Below, piece after piece: positions 9,759 through 17,330 of a stretch of DNA of 45,665 bases. Every line of letters begins with the position of its first letter. The stretch's first letter is position 1. Both the position numbers and the translations under genes were made by a program. Where the stretch lies: assembly GCA_900299185.1 (NCBI GenBank), contig OMIV01000037.1, positions 1 to 45,665 on the forward strand. Direction: 5' to 3'. The notes beneath the pieces were generated by a model. The model made no database searches. It had not been told where the DNA came from and was given only the letters and a program-made list of their open reading frames with translations. The DNA comes from Planctomycetaceae bacterium. GTDB lineage: Bacteria; Planctomycetota; Planctomycetia; Planctomycetales; Planctomycetaceae.

Positions 9759-11408
9759 ATGTCCCAGGGCCTGACTTTCAAACAACGCATGTGGTTACTC
9801 GTGACCGTCTTCATGGTCGCGTTGCTCGGCACGCACCTGATGTACGGCATCATGCTCAGCAAGCTCCGAGTCAGTGGCCCGGTCTATCACCGGATCGTGC
9901 AAGGCAAGGACATCGTCGCCGATATCCTGCCACCGCCGGAGTACGTCATTGAGTCGTATCTCGTCACCTTGCAGCTCGCTCATGTCAACGACATCGAGCA
10001 AGCCAGGCCGTTGATTGAGCGGCTCAATCAGTTGGAAAAAGAGTTCAACGACCGTCGCGACTATTGGAAGTCGAAGCTCGATGAAGGCGACCTGAAGCGC
10101 GGACTGGTGGATAAGGCTTACTTGCCTGCGAACCGTTTCTATCAGCTCGTCCAAGAGCAAATCGTGGCGGGCATCCGAGCGAATAAGAAGTCGGAAGAAC
10201 TACTCGCCGCCATCAATGGGCCGATCAAGACGGCCTATGAAGCTCATCGTCATGAGATCGACGAGGTCGTCAAACTGGCCAACGCGCGCATCGTGGTGGA
10301 TGAAGAAGCGGCTTCCGCGATGGAGTCCTTCTGGAGTTGGACCGTCACCATCTTCGGAGTGTTGTCGTTCGCGGTTCTGGTTGGGTTCAGTTACCTGGTG
10401 GCACGCAGCATCCTCGGCCCGACAGCTCAGTTGATTGAGCGAGTGCGCGACATGGCCGAAGGCGAAGCCGACTTGACCAAGCGCGTGGAGATAAACACCA
10501 ACGATGAAATCGGCACGCTGGCTGAGTTCATCAACAAGACGATCAGCCGCATTCACGACGTGATTGCTCGAGCTCGTATCTCGACGATCCGACTGAATTC
10601 GACGGCTTCTGAGATCGCAGCGTCGGCTTCCGAGCAAAGCGGCACCGTGCAGAACTTCAATGCGTCGAGCACCGAGATTGCTGCCGCCGTTAAAGAGATC
10701 ACGGCCACCGGACAAGAGCTGTGGCGCACGATGGAAGATGTCGATGCGCGAGCCGGTGAAGCATCAACGTTAGCCGACTCTGGCCGTCACGGTTTGCAAA
10801 ACATGGAATTGTCGATGGGCCAGTTGGGAGAAGCGACCAATGCAATCTCCTCGAAGCTGGAAGTCATTCGCGAGAAAGCCAGCGGCATTAACTTGGTCGT
10901 AACAACGATTACAAAGGTCGCCGACCAAACGAACTTGCTCTCGATCAACGCCGCGATCGAAGCCGAGAAAGCGGGCGAGGCAGGACGAGGCTTCTTGGTT
11001 GTCGCTCGCGAAATTCGTCGACTCGCCGATCAAGCAGCAGTGGCCACACTCGACATCGATCAGATGGTTCGACAGATGCAAGCCGCCGTCACATCCGGCG
11101 TGATGGAGATGGATAAATTCAACGAGCAAGTGGGACGCTGCATGGGGCAAGTCGGCGAGATCAACGGACAGATGGGCCAGATCATCGCTCAAGTGACTAC
11201 CTTGAAACAGCGGTTCTCACTGGTCGCGGACGGCATGCAACATCAGGCACAAGGTGCGTCACAAATTGACGAGGCGATGGTGAACCTCATCGGCGGCTTC
11301 CGCAATGTCGGCACCGCAGTGCATGACTTCCAACAAGCATCCGAGAACCTCAGAGAGTCAGCCGTCGAACTACAACGCGACGTCGGACAGTTTGTGGTTT
11401 CCGGCTGA
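9759..11408 (+). CDS. wspA: WspA-like methyl-accepting chemotaxis receptor
   Basis: 549 residues. This is a membrane receptor that would control the WspE kinase. The first membrane helix is at about 11-31, a helical periplasmic domain at 35-190, the second membrane helix at 193-215, HAMP at 216-269, and the cytoplasmic signalling hairpin at about 290-530. The tip (residues 396-423) reads NAAIEAEKAGEAGRGFLVVA followed by REIRRLADQ, then GVMEMDKF; this EAEKAGE...FLVVAREIRRLADQ form is typical of WspA rather than ordinary chemotaxis receptors (EAARAGE...FAVVADEVR). A GGAG lies 9 bases before the ATG. It opens a five-gene cluster whose order matches wspABCDE. In Pseudomonas WspA responds to surface contact; whether that holds here is an inference. 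Confidence 0.9.
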   Translation: MSQGLTFKQRMWLLVTVFMVALLGTHLMYGIMLSKLRVSGPVYHRIVQGKDIVADILPPPEYVIESYLVTLQLAHVNDIEQARPLIERLNQLEKEFNDRRDYWKSKLDEGDLKRGLVDKAYLPANRFYQLVQEQIVAGIRANKKSEELLAAINGPIKTAYEAHRHEIDEVVKLANARIVVDEEAASAMESFWSWTVTIFGVLSFAVLVGFSYLVARSILGPTAQLIERVRDMAEGEADLTKRVEINTNDEIGTLAEFINKTISRIHDVIARARISTIRLNSTASEIAASASEQSGTVQNFNASSTEIAAAVKEITATGQELWRTMEDVDARAGEASTLADSGRHGLQNMELSMGQLGEATNAISSKLEVIREKASGINLVVTTITKVADQTNLLSINAAIEAEKAGEAGRGFLVVAREIRRLADQAAVATLDIDQMVRQMQAAVTSGVMEMDKFNEQVGRCMGQVGEINGQMGQIIAQVTTLKQRFSLVADGMQHQAQGASQIDEAMVNLIGGFRNVGTAVHDFQQASENLRESAVELQRDVGQFVVSG

Positions 11409-11534
11409 TTGCAAACCAAATTTGCGGACCGCGCTTGGAGCCGCATCAGCGAACCCCATGCGACAGCACACAGCACGAATACATGAAGCTCGTGCGACTT
11501 ACTCCAAAATCCTCGTTGCGAAGAAAGGCTCGAC

Positions 11535-12005
11535 ATGTTGGTTCTGATGTGCCGCGCCGGAGACAATCGCTTCGCCTTGGATTCTGAAGTCGTCGCCGAA
11601 GTTGTGCCGTATGTTGAATTGAAGTCGATGCCTGGTGCTCCTGAATGGTTGGCAGGAGTCTTCGCTTATCGAGGCCAAGTGCTCAACGTCTTGGACCTCG
11701 TGCAAGCAGCCACTGGCACTCGATGTCCGCCGAGATGGAGCAGTCGCATTGTCATCGTGCGATTGCCTGGATCTGCGAATCAACAGCTCTTGGGCTTACT
11801 GACCGAACATGTCACCACAACTCAATGGAGTGGCGAGCCTCTTCAAAACGACGCCGCTTCACAGCAGCACAAAGCCAATCAACTACGAGAGCACTCCCGG
11901 TCCGAATGGAATTGGGGATCAGTGCGACTCGATGAAGAAGGAATGTTTCGCGTGTTGGACTTAGAGCAGCTCGTCACTCCAGAACGACGAGCGATGTTGG
12001 CGTGA
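11535..12005 (+). CDS. wspB: WspB-like CheW adaptor
   Basis: 156 residues forming one CheW domain, which would couple the receptor to the WspE kinase in the cytoplasm. The start MLVLMCRAGDNRFALDSEVV and the segment KSMPGAPEWLAGVFAYRGQV match the N-terminal half of WspB proteins. AAAGG lies 6 bases before the ATG. It follows the receptor gene after 126 bases and precedes the CheR gene by 52 bases on the same strand. CheW proteins are short and alike; the assignment to WspB rather than a general CheW rests mainly on position and on the LVLMCRAG/FALD start. Confidence 0.85.
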   Translation: MLVLMCRAGDNRFALDSEVVAEVVPYVELKSMPGAPEWLAGVFAYRGQVLNVLDLVQAATGTRCPPRWSSRIVIVRLPGSANQQLLGLLTEHVTTTQWSGEPLQNDAASQQHKANQLREHSRSEWNWGSVRLDEEGMFRVLDLEQLVTPERRAMLA

Positions 12006-12057
12006 GTTAGCACAGTGAATTCGTAGGGCCACTTGGGTTTCATAGGCAGGGTACGAA

Positions 12058-13344
12058 ATGGAGATCAGTCCCGATTCGTTGCAAAGAATTGACGCCATTC
12101 TGCGAAAGCAAATTGGTCTCAATGCCAAGTCACTAGGAGATACGGGAGTCGCGACAGCGCTGACCGAACGCATCAGCAAGCTGGGCCTCAAGGCGAGCGA
12201 CGAATACATCGAACGCGTGCTCGCCGAATCAACCGAACTCCAACAACTCATCGAATCCGTCGTGGTCCCAGAGACATGGTTCTTTCGCGACATGACACCG
12301 TTTCGATGCATCCAACAGATTGCTCGTCAGCAAGCTGGATCGCGACTGGGACGCCCTCTGCGAGTCCTCAGCATCCCGTGCAGCACCGGTGAGGAACCCT
12401 ACTCCGTCGCCGTAACCTTGCTGGCAACCGGCCTTCACTCGCAACAGTTCTCCATCGACGCTGTCGACATCAGCCAACGCTCCTTGGCCAGAGCAGCCGA
12501 GGGGCATTACGGAGCGATGTCGTTTCGCGAGAAGCACCCCGATTGCCACAACTGGCAGAAGCAATTCTTCCACATCCGAGGCGATCGCTACCACGTCTGC
12601 GAAGACGCTCAGCAACGAGTGACGTTTCGACAAGGGAACCTCGTCTCAAGCGACTTTCTCTCGGGCTCAGCAGCCTACGACGTCGTGCTGTGTCGCAACT
12701 TGCTGATCTACTTCGATGGAACCGCTCGCCAATCGGCCATGAAAAATCTGAAGCGACTGCTGGCGACGGATGGCATCCTCTACAGCGGACACGCAGAAGC
12801 CGCCGCCTTCGCCGATGCAGGCTTCCAAAACTTCGACAAGCAATTCCCGTTTGCCTTTCGACATGCGACTAACGCCCAACCGACGTCGAAGAGCGTGTCG
12901 ATGCCGTTGATGAAAGAGATCAAAAACGTCGGAGCTTGCCGACCAAACAATCGAGTAACTGTTACTCCAGCAGTCCCAACCAAGGGTACAAGCAACGTCA
13001 CCAAGCCTGCCGCTGTCATCGCGCCCAAAACCCTAACGCAGCATGGCCCGTCACTCGCAGAACTCCTTCAAGTCGCGCGCCAGGCAGCGGATCAAGGACG
13101 ACTAAGTGAAGCCCTAAAGGTCGCGGAGCCTCTGACAAAACAACATCCAACCAACGCCGAGACCTGGTGCTTGCTCGGAATTCTCCAACAAGCCACCGGC
13201 CAAAGTGGACTCGCGGAACGCAGCTTTGAACGAGCGGTCTATATCGATCCTCGGCACGGAGAATCGCTGATTCATTTATCGCTGCTCTGCCAACTTCGAG
13301 GTGATGCCGACAAAGCAGCGAGGTATCGCCAGCGAATCACATAA
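12058..13344 (+). CDS. wspC: WspC-like CheR methyltransferase with C-terminal TPR
   Basis: 428 residues. It should methylate glutamates on the WspA receptor using S-adenosylmethionine. The CheR helical and catalytic parts cover about 1-270, with VVVPETWFFRDMTPF (68-82), the SAM-binding SIPCSTGEEPYSVA (105-118), and CRNLLIYF (212-219). A disordered linker (270-330) leads to TPR-like helices (about 333-425, e.g. AERSFERAVYIDPRHGESLI). CheR fused to TPR is the architecture of WspC. AGGG lies 7 bases before the ATG. Normally a CheB esterase (WspF) opposes this enzyme; none is in the window. Confidence 0.92.
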   Translation: MEISPDSLQRIDAILRKQIGLNAKSLGDTGVATALTERISKLGLKASDEYIERVLAESTELQQLIESVVVPETWFFRDMTPFRCIQQIARQQAGSRLGRPLRVLSIPCSTGEEPYSVAVTLLATGLHSQQFSIDAVDISQRSLARAAEGHYGAMSFREKHPDCHNWQKQFFHIRGDRYHVCEDAQQRVTFRQGNLVSSDFLSGSAAYDVVLCRNLLIYFDGTARQSAMKNLKRLLATDGILYSGHAEAAAFADAGFQNFDKQFPFAFRHATNAQPTSKSVSMPLMKEIKNVGACRPNNRVTVTPAVPTKGTSNVTKPAAVIAPKTLTQHGPSLAELLQVARQAADQGRLSEALKVAEPLTKQHPTNAETWCLLGILQQATGQSGLAERSFERAVYIDPRHGESLIHLSLLCQLRGDADKAARYRQRIT

Positions 13345-13502
13345 AGCCTTAATGCCATGCTCGACCTGACACACAACTCCAAGCCAAGTGGGATTCATTC
13401 CAACCAATGTCAAACAAGCTGCTGACATGTTCTTCGTAACCACAGCCCCGACCAAAATCAGGTTCGTGGCAAGCATGTAAGAAACCTGCCACTTGCAAAC
13501 AT

Positions 13503-13521
13503 CCTCTCGCGGAGCGAGAGG
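13503..13521 (+). repeat. Perfect 8-bp hairpin between wspC and wspD
   Basis: CCTCTCGC-GGA-GCGAGAGG forms a perfect stem with a GGA loop in the 222-base gap between the two genes. Its centre TCGCGGAGCGA is the same as the left hairpin of the double-hairpin repeat. It has no T tract, so it is more like a REP-type hairpin than a terminator. Confidence 0.7.
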
Positions 13522-13566
13522 CCACAACTCGCAGAGGATTCGCAACAACGACCAAAGACGCCATTC

Positions 13567-14268
13567 ATGCTCGTGGAACTTGCTATCGACGATTGCTGGA
13601 ATCGCATCGGTGTGAAGGGGGACGGCTCTTGTCCGGAACTCAAGCAGCACGTGCATTGCCGCAACTGTCCGGTCTATGCCGATGCTGGACATCGTTTGTT
13701 TGATAGAGAGCCACCCACAGATTGCATCCAAGAATGGACTCAACAGATCGCCCAAACAGAACCGCTTGAAGCCAGCAATACTGCTCCAGTGCTCGTGTTT
13801 CGTTGCGGCGAAGAGTGGCTCGGATTGCACGTCGCTCAAGTATTGGAAGTTGGTGCTCCTCGCGTCGTACATCGAATTCCACATCGCTCCACCAAGCTAC
13901 TGCAAGGACTGGTCAACATTCGCGGAGAGCTTCAGCTTTGCGTGGCTCTGCGTGAGTTGCTCGGCATCGACTCGACTTCCAACGTCCCACCGCAGCAGCC
14001 ATCGGGTGAGAACAACTCGGCGACGGATACTTCGGATAACAAGCAACGCTTGGTCGTTGTGGAGCGTAATTCGCAAGTCTGGGCCTTCGATGTCGATGAA
14101 GTGGCTGGTGTTACTAGGTTTCCTTTGAGTGAACTTGGAAACGTCCCGGCGACTGTGGCCAATAGTTTGGCGAGATATTCGCGCGGCGTGTTTATGTGGA
14201 ACGAGAAGGCGATTGGTTTCCTCGACGACGAACGGTTGTTCGAACAACTACGGAGGGCAATCGGATGA
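13567..14268 (+). CDS. wspD: WspD-like CheW adaptor with Cys-rich N-terminus
   Basis: 233 residues. An N-terminal segment carries four cysteines, C10, C22, C31 and C34 (DCWNRIGVKGDGSCPEL, HCRNCPVY), which is a signature of WspD. A CheW domain follows (about 74-230) with GLVNIRGELQLCVAL. It would be a second adaptor bridging receptors and the WspE kinase. The N-terminal Cys/His set could bind a metal, but this is an inference. The stop overlaps the WspE start in an ATGA, so translation is probably coupled. No strong ribosome binding site is visible before the ATG at 13567. Confidence 0.9.
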   Translation: MLVELAIDDCWNRIGVKGDGSCPELKQHVHCRNCPVYADAGHRLFDREPPTDCIQEWTQQIAQTEPLEASNTAPVLVFRCGEEWLGLHVAQVLEVGAPRVVHRIPHRSTKLLQGLVNIRGELQLCVALRELLGIDSTSNVPPQQPSGENNSATDTSDNKQRLVVVERNSQVWAFDVDEVAGVTRFPLSELGNVPATVANSLARYSRGVFMWNEKAIGFLDDERLFEQLRRAIG

Positions 14269-17200
14269 GCGGTTATGAAGAACTGCCACTGTTAGACCTC
14301 TTCAAAGAGGAAGTGCGTTCGCAAGTCGAGTCGCTGGAAGCCGGACTTGTCGAATTGGAGCAAGCGCCGACGAACCCGCAGCTCATCGAACCACTGATGC
14401 GAGCCGCACACTCAATCAAGGGTGCAGCGCGAGTGGTTGGAGTCGATCTCGCTGTCGGTCTCGCTCACATCATGGAAGAATGCTTGGTCCGTGCTCAGCG
14501 AGGAACAATCACACTCAATGCATTTTCCATCGACGCCTTGTTGGCCGGTGTCGATTCGCTGCACCAGATCGCGAATGCAGCCGGTGAGGGCTTCGAAGCC
14601 TGGGCTCTTCAACATCAGCCCAAAGTCGACGAACTCAAAGCGAAGTTCGAAAAGATCAGCGCGGGCCAAGTTCTTGAAGTGGCAACAGCTGCGCAAATAG
14701 TCGAGGCGACACAAACGCCGACTTCTGCTCCCAAGCCAGCGGCCGATGTAGTAGCTCCAACACAACCAGACTTGCGTGTCGTCGCTGCTCTGCCGACACC
14801 TGTCCCCGAGGCAGTTGTTGTCCCTGCTGAAAATTCAGATTCGGTTCGGCAAGCGCAGGCTCGGCTGGAAAAGCTAACGGCAGAAATCGCGCGCGGGCCG
14901 TTTGCAGAAACAACGCCAGCCGAACCCACGATCTCGTCGCTTCCAGAAGACTCGCCACTTCTCGACCTGTATCGCATTGAGGCAGAAGCCAAAGCCAAAA
15001 CTCTGATGGCTGCCCTGCCGTCACTCGAAACACATGCGCGAGACGCCCACTTCATCGAACCATTGGTGAATGCGGCCAAGAACATTGCCAGTACGGCACG
15101 AATTGTCTTCTACACCCAAATCGGCGACCTCGCGGCCTCTGTCGAACAAACATTGGCAGCGATCCTGAAAGGGAAGCTCAAGGTCGAAGAGTCAGTGAAT
15201 GCACTCTTCGATGCGGTCGTTCTTATCGAACAATCTGCAGTGCCCGAGTCCGGCGGTAATCAAAGCACTCGGAATGCAGCATCCGAACTCGCGCAAGTCT
15301 TGAAATCACTCGCGCCAAGCGACGAACCGTCGCAGGCAACTAGCCTGCCCACGACAACTCCAGTCGCCCAGCTGACTCAAGCCGTGACGCAACCAGCGAT
15401 AGCGATTCAAAAGGTCGAACCTGTCGCTCAAACGCCGTCACAAGTCGTTGAATCGCAGACACATCATCCAGCGACCACTCTCGCTCAAAACGATCTCTCG
15501 TCACCCAAGCCTGTAACGCCAGTTACAGAGGCCACCCCGGTCCCTAATTCCAAGCCACCAGCAAAGCCTGCAACGCTCGACGAAAAAGAACGAGTGGTTC
15601 GAATCACAGCTCAAAGTCTTACGCGACTGATGGGCTTGGCTGGCGAATCACTCGTGGAAGCGCGGTGGCTTCAACCATTCTCCCAGTCGTTGCTCATGCT
15701 CAGGCGTCAGCAGGATCACCTCGCGGATGTGATCGAAGAACTTTCCGAGCAATTGTCGCGAACAAAGTCTGATCGGCGCGCCTTAGATCTCATTCTGGAC
15801 GCAAGACAACAAGTTGGTCACTGCCGGCACGAACTCACGGAGCGCATCGACGAATTCGAGACTCATGCACGTCAGTCTGATGATCTCAATAGTCGGCTCT
15901 ACCACGAAGTCATTACCAGCCGCATGCGGCCGTTCGGAGATGGAGTACACGGCTTCCCCCGCATGGTTCGCGATCTCGCAAGGCAACTCGGCAAGAACGT
16001 GCATTTTGAATTACTCGGGCAACGAACCAACGTTGATCGAGAGATCCTAGAAAAACTCGAAGCGCCGCTCACCCACCTGATTCGTAACGCAGTCGATCAC
16101 GGACTCGATACGCCCACCGAACGACTGGCTGCGGGAAAGTCCGAACATGGCCGTATCGTGGTTGAAGCACGCCATGCAGCAGGGATGCTTTCAATAACTA
16201 TTAGTGACGACGGGCGCGGAGTCGATCTCGATCGGCTTCGCCAGAAGATCATCGAGAAGAAGCTACAGAAGCCAGACATCGTTAAGAGTCTGAATGAGAA
16301 AGAACTCCTCGACTTCCTGTTCCTACCAGGCTTCTCCACCGCAGAAAAAGTCACAGACGTTTCAGGACGCGGCGTTGGGCTGGATGTGGTTCACAGCACC
16401 ATTTACGCCGTCGGCGGCAACCTAAAGATCACAACCAAGAAAGGGCTGGGCACGACGTTTCATCTGATGCTGCCAATCACGTTGTCAGTCTTGCGAGCCG
16501 TTCTATGTGACATCGGGGGAGAGCCGTATGCGTTCCCTCACAACCGCATTGAGCGTCTCATCAAACTCCCGCGTTCGTCAGTTCGATCGCTCGAGTATCG
16601 CCAGTACTTCGAAGTGGATGGCCGCAATGTGGGGCTCGTGCAGGCTCAGCAAGTACTCCATTTAGATGGAGCAGAATCCGACGACGAAGAGTTATCAATC
16701 GTTCTTTTTGGCAATGACTCCCGTCAGTACGGCTTAATCGTGGATGCCTTTCGATCCGAACAAGATCTGGTAGTCAGACCGCTAGATGCACGGCTAGGAA
16801 AAGTCCCCAACATCAGCTCAGCCGCCATTTTGGAAGACGGTTCTCCCGTATTGATTGTCGACATCGAAGACCTCACCCGATCGATCGAAAAACTGATCAA
16901 TGGCGAACGTCTGCGACGCGTCGGCCATAAAACCAAACCCAATGAGCAACGACGAAAACGAGTGCTAGTCGTTGACGACTCGATCACCGTTCGAGAGGTT
17001 GAACGGCAGTTGTTGACGAGTCACGGTTACGAGGTCGAAGTAGCCGTTGACGGAGCAGATGGTTGGAACGCCGTAAGAGACGGTCAATTTGACCTCGTCG
17101 TCAGCGATGTCGATATGCCCCGCATGAACGGCTTCGACTTCGTAAACCAAATAAAGAGCGATCCGCGACTACAAGCCACTCCCGTCATAATCGTGTCCTA

Positions 17201-17330
17201 CAAGGACCGAGAAGAAGATAAACTTCGAGGATTGCAAGTCGGAGCAAACTACTACCTGACCAAGAGTAGTTTCCACGACGAATCCCTAATCAATGCCGTC
17301 GAAGTTCTAATTGGAACGGGAAAAGCATAA
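14265..17330 (+). CDS. wspE: WspE-like hybrid CheA histidine kinase with C-terminal receiver
   Basis: 1021 residues. The ATG at 14265 overlaps the wspD stop (ATGA) and has GGAGG 8 bases upstream; a longer in-frame start at 14196 is less likely. Domains: Hpt with phospho-site H49 (AAHSIKGAARVVG), then a second Hpt-like repeat at about 228-325 in which the His is Lys (K272), then a Pro/Thr/Gln-rich linker (330-440). The CheA dimerisation/ATPase region follows: N box HLIRNAVDHG (604-613), G1 DDGRG (648-652), G2 GRGVGL (701-706). A CheW-like domain (~735-880) and a receiver end the protein, with D904/D905, phospho-acceptor D948, S978 and K1000. The Hpt-kinase-CheW-REC layout is that of WspE. It should autophosphorylate on receptor input; the output partner is not encoded here. 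Confidence 0.93.
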   Translation: MSGYEELPLLDLFKEEVRSQVESLEAGLVELEQAPTNPQLIEPLMRAAHSIKGAARVVGVDLAVGLAHIMEECLVRAQRGTITLNAFSIDALLAGVDSLHQIANAAGEGFEAWALQHQPKVDELKAKFEKISAGQVLEVATAAQIVEATQTPTSAPKPAADVVAPTQPDLRVVAALPTPVPEAVVVPAENSDSVRQAQARLEKLTAEIARGPFAETTPAEPTISSLPEDSPLLDLYRIEAEAKAKTLMAALPSLETHARDAHFIEPLVNAAKNIASTARIVFYTQIGDLAASVEQTLAAILKGKLKVEESVNALFDAVVLIEQSAVPESGGNQSTRNAASELAQVLKSLAPSDEPSQATSLPTTTPVAQLTQAVTQPAIAIQKVEPVAQTPSQVVESQTHHPATTLAQNDLSSPKPVTPVTEATPVPNSKPPAKPATLDEKERVVRITAQSLTRLMGLAGESLVEARWLQPFSQSLLMLRRQQDHLADVIEELSEQLSRTKSDRRALDLILDARQQVGHCRHELTERIDEFETHARQSDDLNSRLYHEVITSRMRPFGDGVHGFPRMVRDLARQLGKNVHFELLGQRTNVDREILEKLEAPLTHLIRNAVDHGLDTPTERLAAGKSEHGRIVVEARHAAGMLSITISDDGRGVDLDRLRQKIIEKKLQKPDIVKSLNEKELLDFLFLPGFSTAEKVTDVSGRGVGLDVVHSTIYAVGGNLKITTKKGLGTTFHLMLPITLSVLRAVLCDIGGEPYAFPHNRIERLIKLPRSSVRSLEYRQYFEVDGRNVGLVQAQQVLHLDGAESDDEELSIVLFGNDSRQYGLIVDAFRSEQDLVVRPLDARLGKVPNISSAAILEDGSPVLIVDIEDLTRSIEKLINGERLRRVGHKTKPNEQRRKRVLVVDDSITVREVERQLLTSHGYEVEVAVDGADGWNAVRDGQFDLVVSDVDMPRMNGFDFVNQIKSDPRLQATPVIIVSYKDREEDKLRGLQVGANYYLTKSSFHDESLINAVEVLIGTGKA

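Follow-up and report, generated by a model that had tools for sequence, protein, structure and literature searches.

A Wsp chemosensory cluster in a planctomycete, with a WspR-type receiver fused to a PP2C phosphatase as its probable output

The stretch of DNA considered here, called the window, consists of 45,665 nucleotides of contig sequence from the genome assembly GCA_900299185.1 of a Planctomycetaceae bacterium (OMIV01000037.1; G000:C37:1-45665, where G, C, L and f numbers are our labels for genomes, contigs, loci and families). It carries five genes of the Wsp chemosensory system, whose methylesterase gene, wspF, and output gene are found on a second contig, C118 (Table 1). The five open reading frames (ORFs) are all open, adjacent and on the plus strand, and according to the ORF list and Pfam they stand in Wsp order with the matching domains; the ATG of wspE overlaps the stop codon of wspD. 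A preliminary description, made from the sequence of the locus, had recognized wspA to wspE by order and domain layout, and Pfam supports each assignment, including the CheR-TPR protein, the cysteine-rich WspD and the CheA-receiver fusion.

Table 1. Genes of the Wsp cluster in the window and of the wspF-output pair on contig C118
Gene	Position	Strand	Product and evidence
wspA	window 9759..11408	+	membrane chemoreceptor; Pfam HAMP 1.9e-9, MCPsignal 4.8e-29
wspB	window 11535..12005	+	CheW-type coupling protein; Pfam CheW 2.1e-20
wspC	window 12058..13344	+	CheR methyltransferase with C-terminal TPR; Pfam CheR 1.3e-36, TPR matches at residues 334-421
wspD	window 13567..14268	+	CheW-type coupler with Cys-rich N-terminus; Pfam CheW 4.7e-22
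wspE	window 14265..17330	+	hybrid CheA kinase; Pfam Hpt-HATPase_c-CheW-Response_reg
wspF	contig C118, L017:9288-10430	minus	receiver-CheB methylesterase; CheB in WspF clade
receiver-PP2C output gene	contig C118, L017:7879-9054	minus	391 residues; receiver + SpoIIE/PP2C 1.7e-37

The window WspA is 35% identical to WspA of Cupriavidus metallidurans over 550 amino acids and 55% identical to that of the relative G277 over 274 amino acids. WspD shares an N-terminal four-cysteine motif with its C. metallidurans counterpart, and this motif, which looks as if it bound a metal, is conserved in 65 of the 79 loci that match WspD. It is absent from the other 14, those of f62 and f89 planctomycetes and L347 (L068 lies near a contig end). 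Neither a CheB nor a GGDEF gene adjoins the cluster among the ORFs and Pfam domains of the window, so that the absence of wspF and of a cyclic di-GMP (c-di-GMP) output from the locus, as first described, stands. The genes from 17566 onward run convergently on the minus strand and resemble cytochrome oxidase genes, as judged by eye from their ORFs rather than by a family search. Because the cluster lies well inside the window, its end is not a contig end. A scan of the cluster for promoters and terminators gave nothing informative. Positions 9759-17330 constitute a genuine Wsp system, the genes of which are dispersed in the genome.

A genome-wide domain search finds five CheB and seven GGDEF domains. 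The CheB on C118 is a WspF, 44% identical to WspF of C. metallidurans as against 28-32% to three other CheBs of the same genome, and the gene after it encodes a receiver joined to a PP2C phosphatase. This receiver is 70% identical to that of C. metallidurans WspR, and among solved structures it matches WspR (3bre, 7.5e-58; 3i5a, 1.6e-54) much more strongly than RssB (7.3e-23) or PleD (4.3e-16). The C118 protein is an output with a WspR-type receiver, in which Pfam detects neither the GGDEF domain that marks the output of the Wsp R-system nor the histidine kinase domain that marks that of the H-system. It is also the sole match in the genome (E up to 1e-28) to a profile built from 13 WspR-type receivers, ten of them PP2C-fused, which divergent receivers could escape. 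The genome was thus found to hold one WspE-grade kinase and one WspR-type receiver.

Other candidates for WspF were rejected. Three of the remaining CheBs fall outside the WspF clade, and the fourth, which the start of contig C293 truncates, contains an in-frame stop and is equally close (34-37% identity) to WspF and two ordinary CheBs, with 30% to a third. C293 begins inside this interrupted CheB, and the first ORF of another contig, C257, starts with the peptide RGLGDVYKRQ, which we take to be a translated sequencing adapter; some contig ends of the assembly may carry artefacts.

The combination of WspE with a receiver-PP2C protein recurs across Planctomycetota. Among 392 genomes of the phylum, 62 have a match to the C118 protein at 1e-30. 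Apart from the protein itself, 18 full-length homologues at 45% identity or more were found, beyond which matches are partial or weaker. All 18 of these genomes contain WspE. In 17 of the 18 homologue neighbourhoods (examined together with two further receiver loci), receiver-PP2C comes directly after wspF with wspE upstream, and wspA-D lie further upstream where the contig allows; in L057, wspE precedes wspF-receiver-PP2C after a gap of about 2 kb, and the one neighbourhood of the 18 that deviates is that of G094. A search with the kinase part of WspE returns 20 genomes with identities of at least 46% (E <1e-165), followed by a gap down to 35% and 1e-104, and the separate search for WspR-type receivers returns the same 20 of 392. 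In 19 of these the receiver is fused to PP2C and in one (G110) to a histidine kinase and receiver, with output domains named by small home-made profiles and tblastn and, for a part, by Pfam. None of the 25 profile matches in the 20 genomes is on a GGDEF protein, and 17 of the 19 PP2C-type genomes keep receiver-PP2C in one locus with wspE and wspF. By the preliminary description, finding wspF and wspR directly downstream in close relatives would have reduced this locus to a local rearrangement; wspF indeed follows wspE in many relatives, but it is receiver-PP2C, not wspR, that comes next. Since so many relatives retain wspF downstream of wspE, the split seen here is itself a rearrangement.

Some of these loci carry further signalling genes. 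Five of these 20 genomes, each from family f89 (G364, G251, G295, G376 and G360; L260-L264), have, besides receiver-PP2C, a second and weaker receiver match fused to GAF and HD-GYP domains, with receivers 39-60% identical to that of C118. At six loci (L056, L058, L060, L061, L062 and L064), a second chemoreceptor gene with a WspA-like signalling part stands beside receiver-PP2C and converges on the end of the operon.

The catalytic residues of the output protein are conserved. The acidic residues D52, D70, D191, D242 and D243 (A1 numbering), which we assume to be the PP2C metal ligands, are invariant in an alignment of 19 phosphatase parts, as are the receiver residues D15, D16, D60 and K112, presumably the functional ones, in 26 full-length proteins. 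An AlphaFold model of the L081 homologue (mean pLDDT 89.7, pTM 0.65) places a single helix of 48 residues (116-163) between receiver and phosphatase, and its best matches in the PDB are Pseudomonas aeruginosa RssB, at about 24% identity, followed by WspR. Of 87 loci, eight, from several phyla, have STAS or RsbW-like genes no more than 1.2 kb away from receiver-PP2C (binomial p about 5e-7, with two duplicate loci dropped and the two genes of one locus not independent). Eleven of the 14 such genes found fall within this distance, and Pfam confirms ten of the eleven. This enrichment makes a partner switch the likely route by which the phosphatase would act.

These genes, domains, catalytic residues, clade memberships, co-occurrences and gene orders, together with the STAS/RsbW-like neighbours in some relatives, are accounted for if the window encodes the sensing part of a Wsp system and the WspF and receiver-PP2C of C118 form the remaining part, the phosphatase driving a STAS/RsbW-like partner switch. 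We regard this reading as probable. A signal would act at WspA and activate WspE, and the Hpt histidine of WspE would pass phosphate to two targets, the output receiver and, for adaptation, WspF. Baral et al. (2025; PMC12143880) report that coiled-coil formation by the linkers of RsbU activates it and propose that outputs behind such linkers can be exchanged. By analogy, phosphorylated receivers may pair so that their helices form a coiled coil and switch the phosphatase on. We infer that the phosphatase would then dephosphorylate a STAS anti-anti-sigma factor, which in turn would capture an RsbW-like kinase and thereby free an alternative sigma factor.

Several observations weigh against this reading, and those on the output come first. 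No STAS/RsbW-like gene lies within 1.2 kb in 79 of the 87 loci, so the substrate is deduced from a minority of them. The genome itself has 11 STAS matches and an rsbV-rsbW-like pair on contig C80, which favours a partner switch, but the pair is unlinked to receiver-PP2C. The nearest solved full-length fold, RssB, can act as a proteolysis adaptor, and another kind of output is possible by analogy; according to PMC12143880, P. aeruginosa RssB is an adaptor whose phosphatase is active and whose operon encodes an rsbV-like partner. Receiver-PP2C might accordingly be the Wsp output and still bypass a STAS/RsbW partner switch, acting on other phosphoproteins or as an RssB-like degradation adaptor. 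The enrichment of partner genes in eight loci of several phyla and the invariant catalytic aspartates speak against this alternative, which is the strongest of the rivals and yet distinctly less likely than a partner switch.

Other observations of this kind touch the link between the two contigs. In L078, L100, L126 and L156, receiver-PP2C is next to a chemosensory cluster of another, non-Wsp type, and the closest relative of the C118 receiver-PP2C is that of L078 (61%), followed by L079, L081 and others, rather than the neighbour shown by WspE and WspF. In G094, WspE and receiver-PP2C occupy separate loci, with no Wsp gene near receiver-PP2C. As the window cluster and the C118 pair are also on separate contigs, the pair could serve another chemosensory system, the window Wsp having a different output or none. 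The phylogeny of the partners argues otherwise. In a quick WspF/CheB tree, the C118 CheB falls within a WspF clade of 76 rows (SH-aLRT 100) as sister to WspF of L081 and L086 (95), whereas the CheBs of the four loci of the second type fall outside this clade. The window WspE groups with L079, L081 and L086 (support 93; 80/93 in the more careful tree described below) and has L081 and L086 as its closest kin there, which puts it in agreement with the C118 WspF. With a single WspE-grade kinase and a single WspR-type receiver found in the genome, a separate system for the C118 pair seems improbable. The non-Wsp cluster of L100 appears to begin with a free-standing WspE-like Hpt (L100:8557-9273, minus strand), and L126 and L156 have a similar match at the same place; the L100 Hpt is perhaps a phosphate bridge from another CheA.

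The dispersal of the system over two contigs might also betray decay or a recent shuffling that left it without function, the more so as, among the matches listed for genomes of the same family, the system appears in this genome only. All seven genes are nevertheless open, with their domains present, and the same split recurs. In G392 and G393, wspABCDE lacks wspF with more than 8 kb to spare, and wspF with receiver-PP2C is on another contig, as in the genome of the window; G394, G395, G396 and G397 look similar, but in them the contig stops about 0.1 to 2 kb beyond the cluster. A functionless remnant is therefore very improbable. As G392, G393 and G395-G397 belong to a different WspE clade from the window, the separation of wspABCDE from the two partner genes probably had at least two origins. 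Contamination or a break in the assembly is unlikely: both loci are internal to their stretches, other genomes have the same split, and compositions agree. C37 and C118 show a correlation of 0.959 between their tetranucleotide profiles, compared with 0.90-0.97 for 11 other contigs of the genome against C37 or C118 and 0.69-0.87 for six loci of other genomes.

A wider sample shows how regularly WspE accompanies receiver-PP2C. Loci collected with PP2C as bait from a named genome collection are the best 80 of 583, a sample unfit for frequencies, for which the phylum censuses used the receiver profile instead. In 56 of these best 80, a WspR-type receiver is joined to PP2C (matches on one strand within 150 bases), and in 34 of the 56 the locus matches both WspF domains as well; L078, with its different type of cluster, is counted among the 34. 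For 20 of the 56 loci, namely 19 that lack wspE and L100, which lies beside another cluster, the whole genomes were searched, and all 20 contain WspE at 51-65% identity, and the other CheAs listed in them reach at most 39% identity to WspE.

That an ordinary WspR elsewhere in the genome makes c-di-GMP, as its seven GGDEF proteins might suggest, is already contradicted and can hardly hold, given that the receiver profile matches the C118 protein alone here and no GGDEF protein in the 20 Wsp-bearing Planctomycetota. The only one of the seven with a receiver, on C14, was rejected as WspR because the profile misses it; the others have CBS, HDOD or HD/PAS domains or no further Pfam domain. The preliminary description had left open whether the missing functions were encoded elsewhere or the system was rewired, and suggested a genome search for both. 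Each surmise was half right: a CheB close to WspF is encoded elsewhere, on C118, but the receiver profile finds no WspR-like receiver-GGDEF, and the c-di-GMP output has been replaced, though through a dedicated receiver-PP2C protein and not the receiver of WspE. The latter as sole output became superfluous once the C118 protein was found, although a helper role is possible.

Receiver-PP2C Wsp loci are not confined to Planctomycetota, where named carriers include Limnoglobus roseus (L111) and Zavarzinella formosa (L125). Thermodesulfobacteriota have them too, for example Desulfoferrobacter suflitae strain DRH4 (L094), as do Acidobacteriota (L110, L141), Elusimicrobiota (L114, L118), Lentisphaerota (L128, L134) and bacterium SM23_31 (L096). 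Gammaproteobacterial examples are L080 and L083, titled Methylococcaceae, and L090, Candidatus Methylumidiphilus; all three of these genomes carry receiver-GGDEF as well. In 385 genomes of the phylum of D. suflitae, a WspR-type receiver is found in 22, with PP2C alone in 12, a class III cyclase plus PP2C in three and GGDEF in seven, the output domains being named in the same way as for Planctomycetota. wspF lies directly upstream of the first receiver gene in 21 of the 22, and the remaining one is at a contig end. The PP2C form is the main Wsp variant in the two phyla counted.

Further outputs and combinations are found elsewhere. In four Thermodesulfobacteriota genomes (L120:7246-8733; L341, L342, L343), wspF is followed by a WspR-type receiver fused to a class III adenylate/guanylate cyclase and then by receiver-PP2C. 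A Mesorhizobium plasmid, from an alphaproteobacterium, bears a complete annotated wsp cluster with receiver-GGDEF. One Burkholderia cenocepacia replicon (NZ_CP091013.1; L290, L293) has a WspR-type receiver on a GGDEF protein and another on a histidine kinase, in apparent contrast to a published statement that no genome holds both Wsp types.

The WspE phylogeny bears on the order in which these outputs arose. In a careful tree of 74 rows (72 WspE and two outgroup CheAs), all 14 GGDEF systems form one clade (99/96) nested among PP2C types, which also make up the deepest ingroup branches. When four other CheAs serve as outgroup the root moves, but the deepest ingroup fork once more separates a PP2C-only group, here of 15 rows, and the GGDEF clade (100/97) is again nested. 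The 72 WspE rows, four betaproteobacterial and one Mesorhizobium sequence among them, fall on one side of a 100/100 branch from the outgroup. WspE thus stands in a clade apart from all six outgroup CheAs (three of the four in the second set from this genome, with its CheA on C271 outside the tree), and the grouping with ordinary chemotaxis families that the preliminary description had considered does not appear. For the 74-row tree, 15 locus labels were dropped by hand (near copies, long branches and others, including L148, L127 and L265) and rows with short matches were left out. Both trees (LG+G4) have weak deep forks (81/47, 64/75) and long outgroup branches, and the sample is partly bait-biased and contains no Pseudomonas WspE.

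The simplest reading of these trees is that the GGDEF output had a single origin. Going further, PP2C may be the older as well as the commoner Wsp output. In its original form the pathway would then have placed a sigma-factor partner switch under chemosensory control. The c-di-GMP form with WspR would be a single derived offshoot, with GGDEF in the place of PP2C and the receiver and helix retained; the histidine kinase, the class III cyclase and possibly HD-GYP would represent further swaps. This scenario is offered tentatively, as we give it slightly less than an even chance.

The system shares with the Wsp R-system of Pseudomonas the same kinds of receptor, couplers, CheR-TPR protein, hybrid kinase and methylesterase, the same receiver with its helix and, in many relatives of this genome, the gene order. 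It differs in its output, PP2C instead of GGDEF, and in the placement of wspF and the output gene, which in this genome do not share a contig with wspABCDE. The H-system of Burkholderia resembles it in that the cyclase behind a WspR-type receiver is replaced by another output, there a hybrid histidine kinase (WspH) and here a phosphatase; a similar fusion occurs in G110 only among the 20 Wsp-bearing Planctomycetota. RssB and the RsbU/SpoIIE-type phosphatases are comparable in partner-switch neighbours at some loci and, for RssB, in the receiver-helix-PP2C layout and fold, whereas the receiver found on C118 belongs to the WspR type and apparently has a chemosensory kinase as its input.

Parts of this arrangement had been seen before, since a survey of CheR-TPR clusters of the alternative cellular function (ACF) class includes, among their response regulators, receivers joined to a family-2C phosphatase, a histidine kinase, GGDEF or a mononucleotidyl cyclase (Munoz-Martinez et al., 2012; PMC3447774). 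The abstract, outline and passages with which the comparison was made do not single out Wsp orthologues with PP2C, their lineage, the gene split, the partner genes or the relation to WspR. Kessler et al. (2021; PMC8552884) state that no bacteria other than beta- and gammaproteobacteria have Wsp and that WspR and WspH are its only outputs; their survey demanded conserved synteny and an identity of 30% or more to queries from Pseudomonas or Burkholderia. The present data do not fit either the taxonomic limit or the limit to two outputs as worded there. A study of freshwater planctomycetes reports Wsp proteins including WspR (PMC6461901), and judging by our census some of these may be receiver-PP2C proteins. 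PMC7184735 notes that chemosensory clusters of the Stage 1 F7 class also hold anti-sigma factor antagonists and a serine phosphatase. A literature search for Wsp with a phosphatase output, with most subscription papers outside its reach, returned only the general 2012 survey and the contrary statement. The kind of fusion was already known; in the present system WspF is kept and PP2C replaces the c-di-GMP cyclase behind the same receiver.

One receiver-helix unit can bear PP2C, GGDEF, a histidine kinase or a nucleotide cyclase within one kind of pathway, and such natural swaps make the proposal of exchangeable outputs, as set out in PMC12143880, testable. Predictions follow for named strains, Desulfoferrobacter suflitae, Limnoglobus roseus and Zavarzinella formosa among them. 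Textbooks present Wsp as a surface sensor, and in experimental evolution it serves as a model; in both roles it is told as a c-di-GMP pathway. In other phyla it ends in a protein phosphatase instead, and the genes beside this phosphatase in some genomes make it probable that a sigma factor is under its control.

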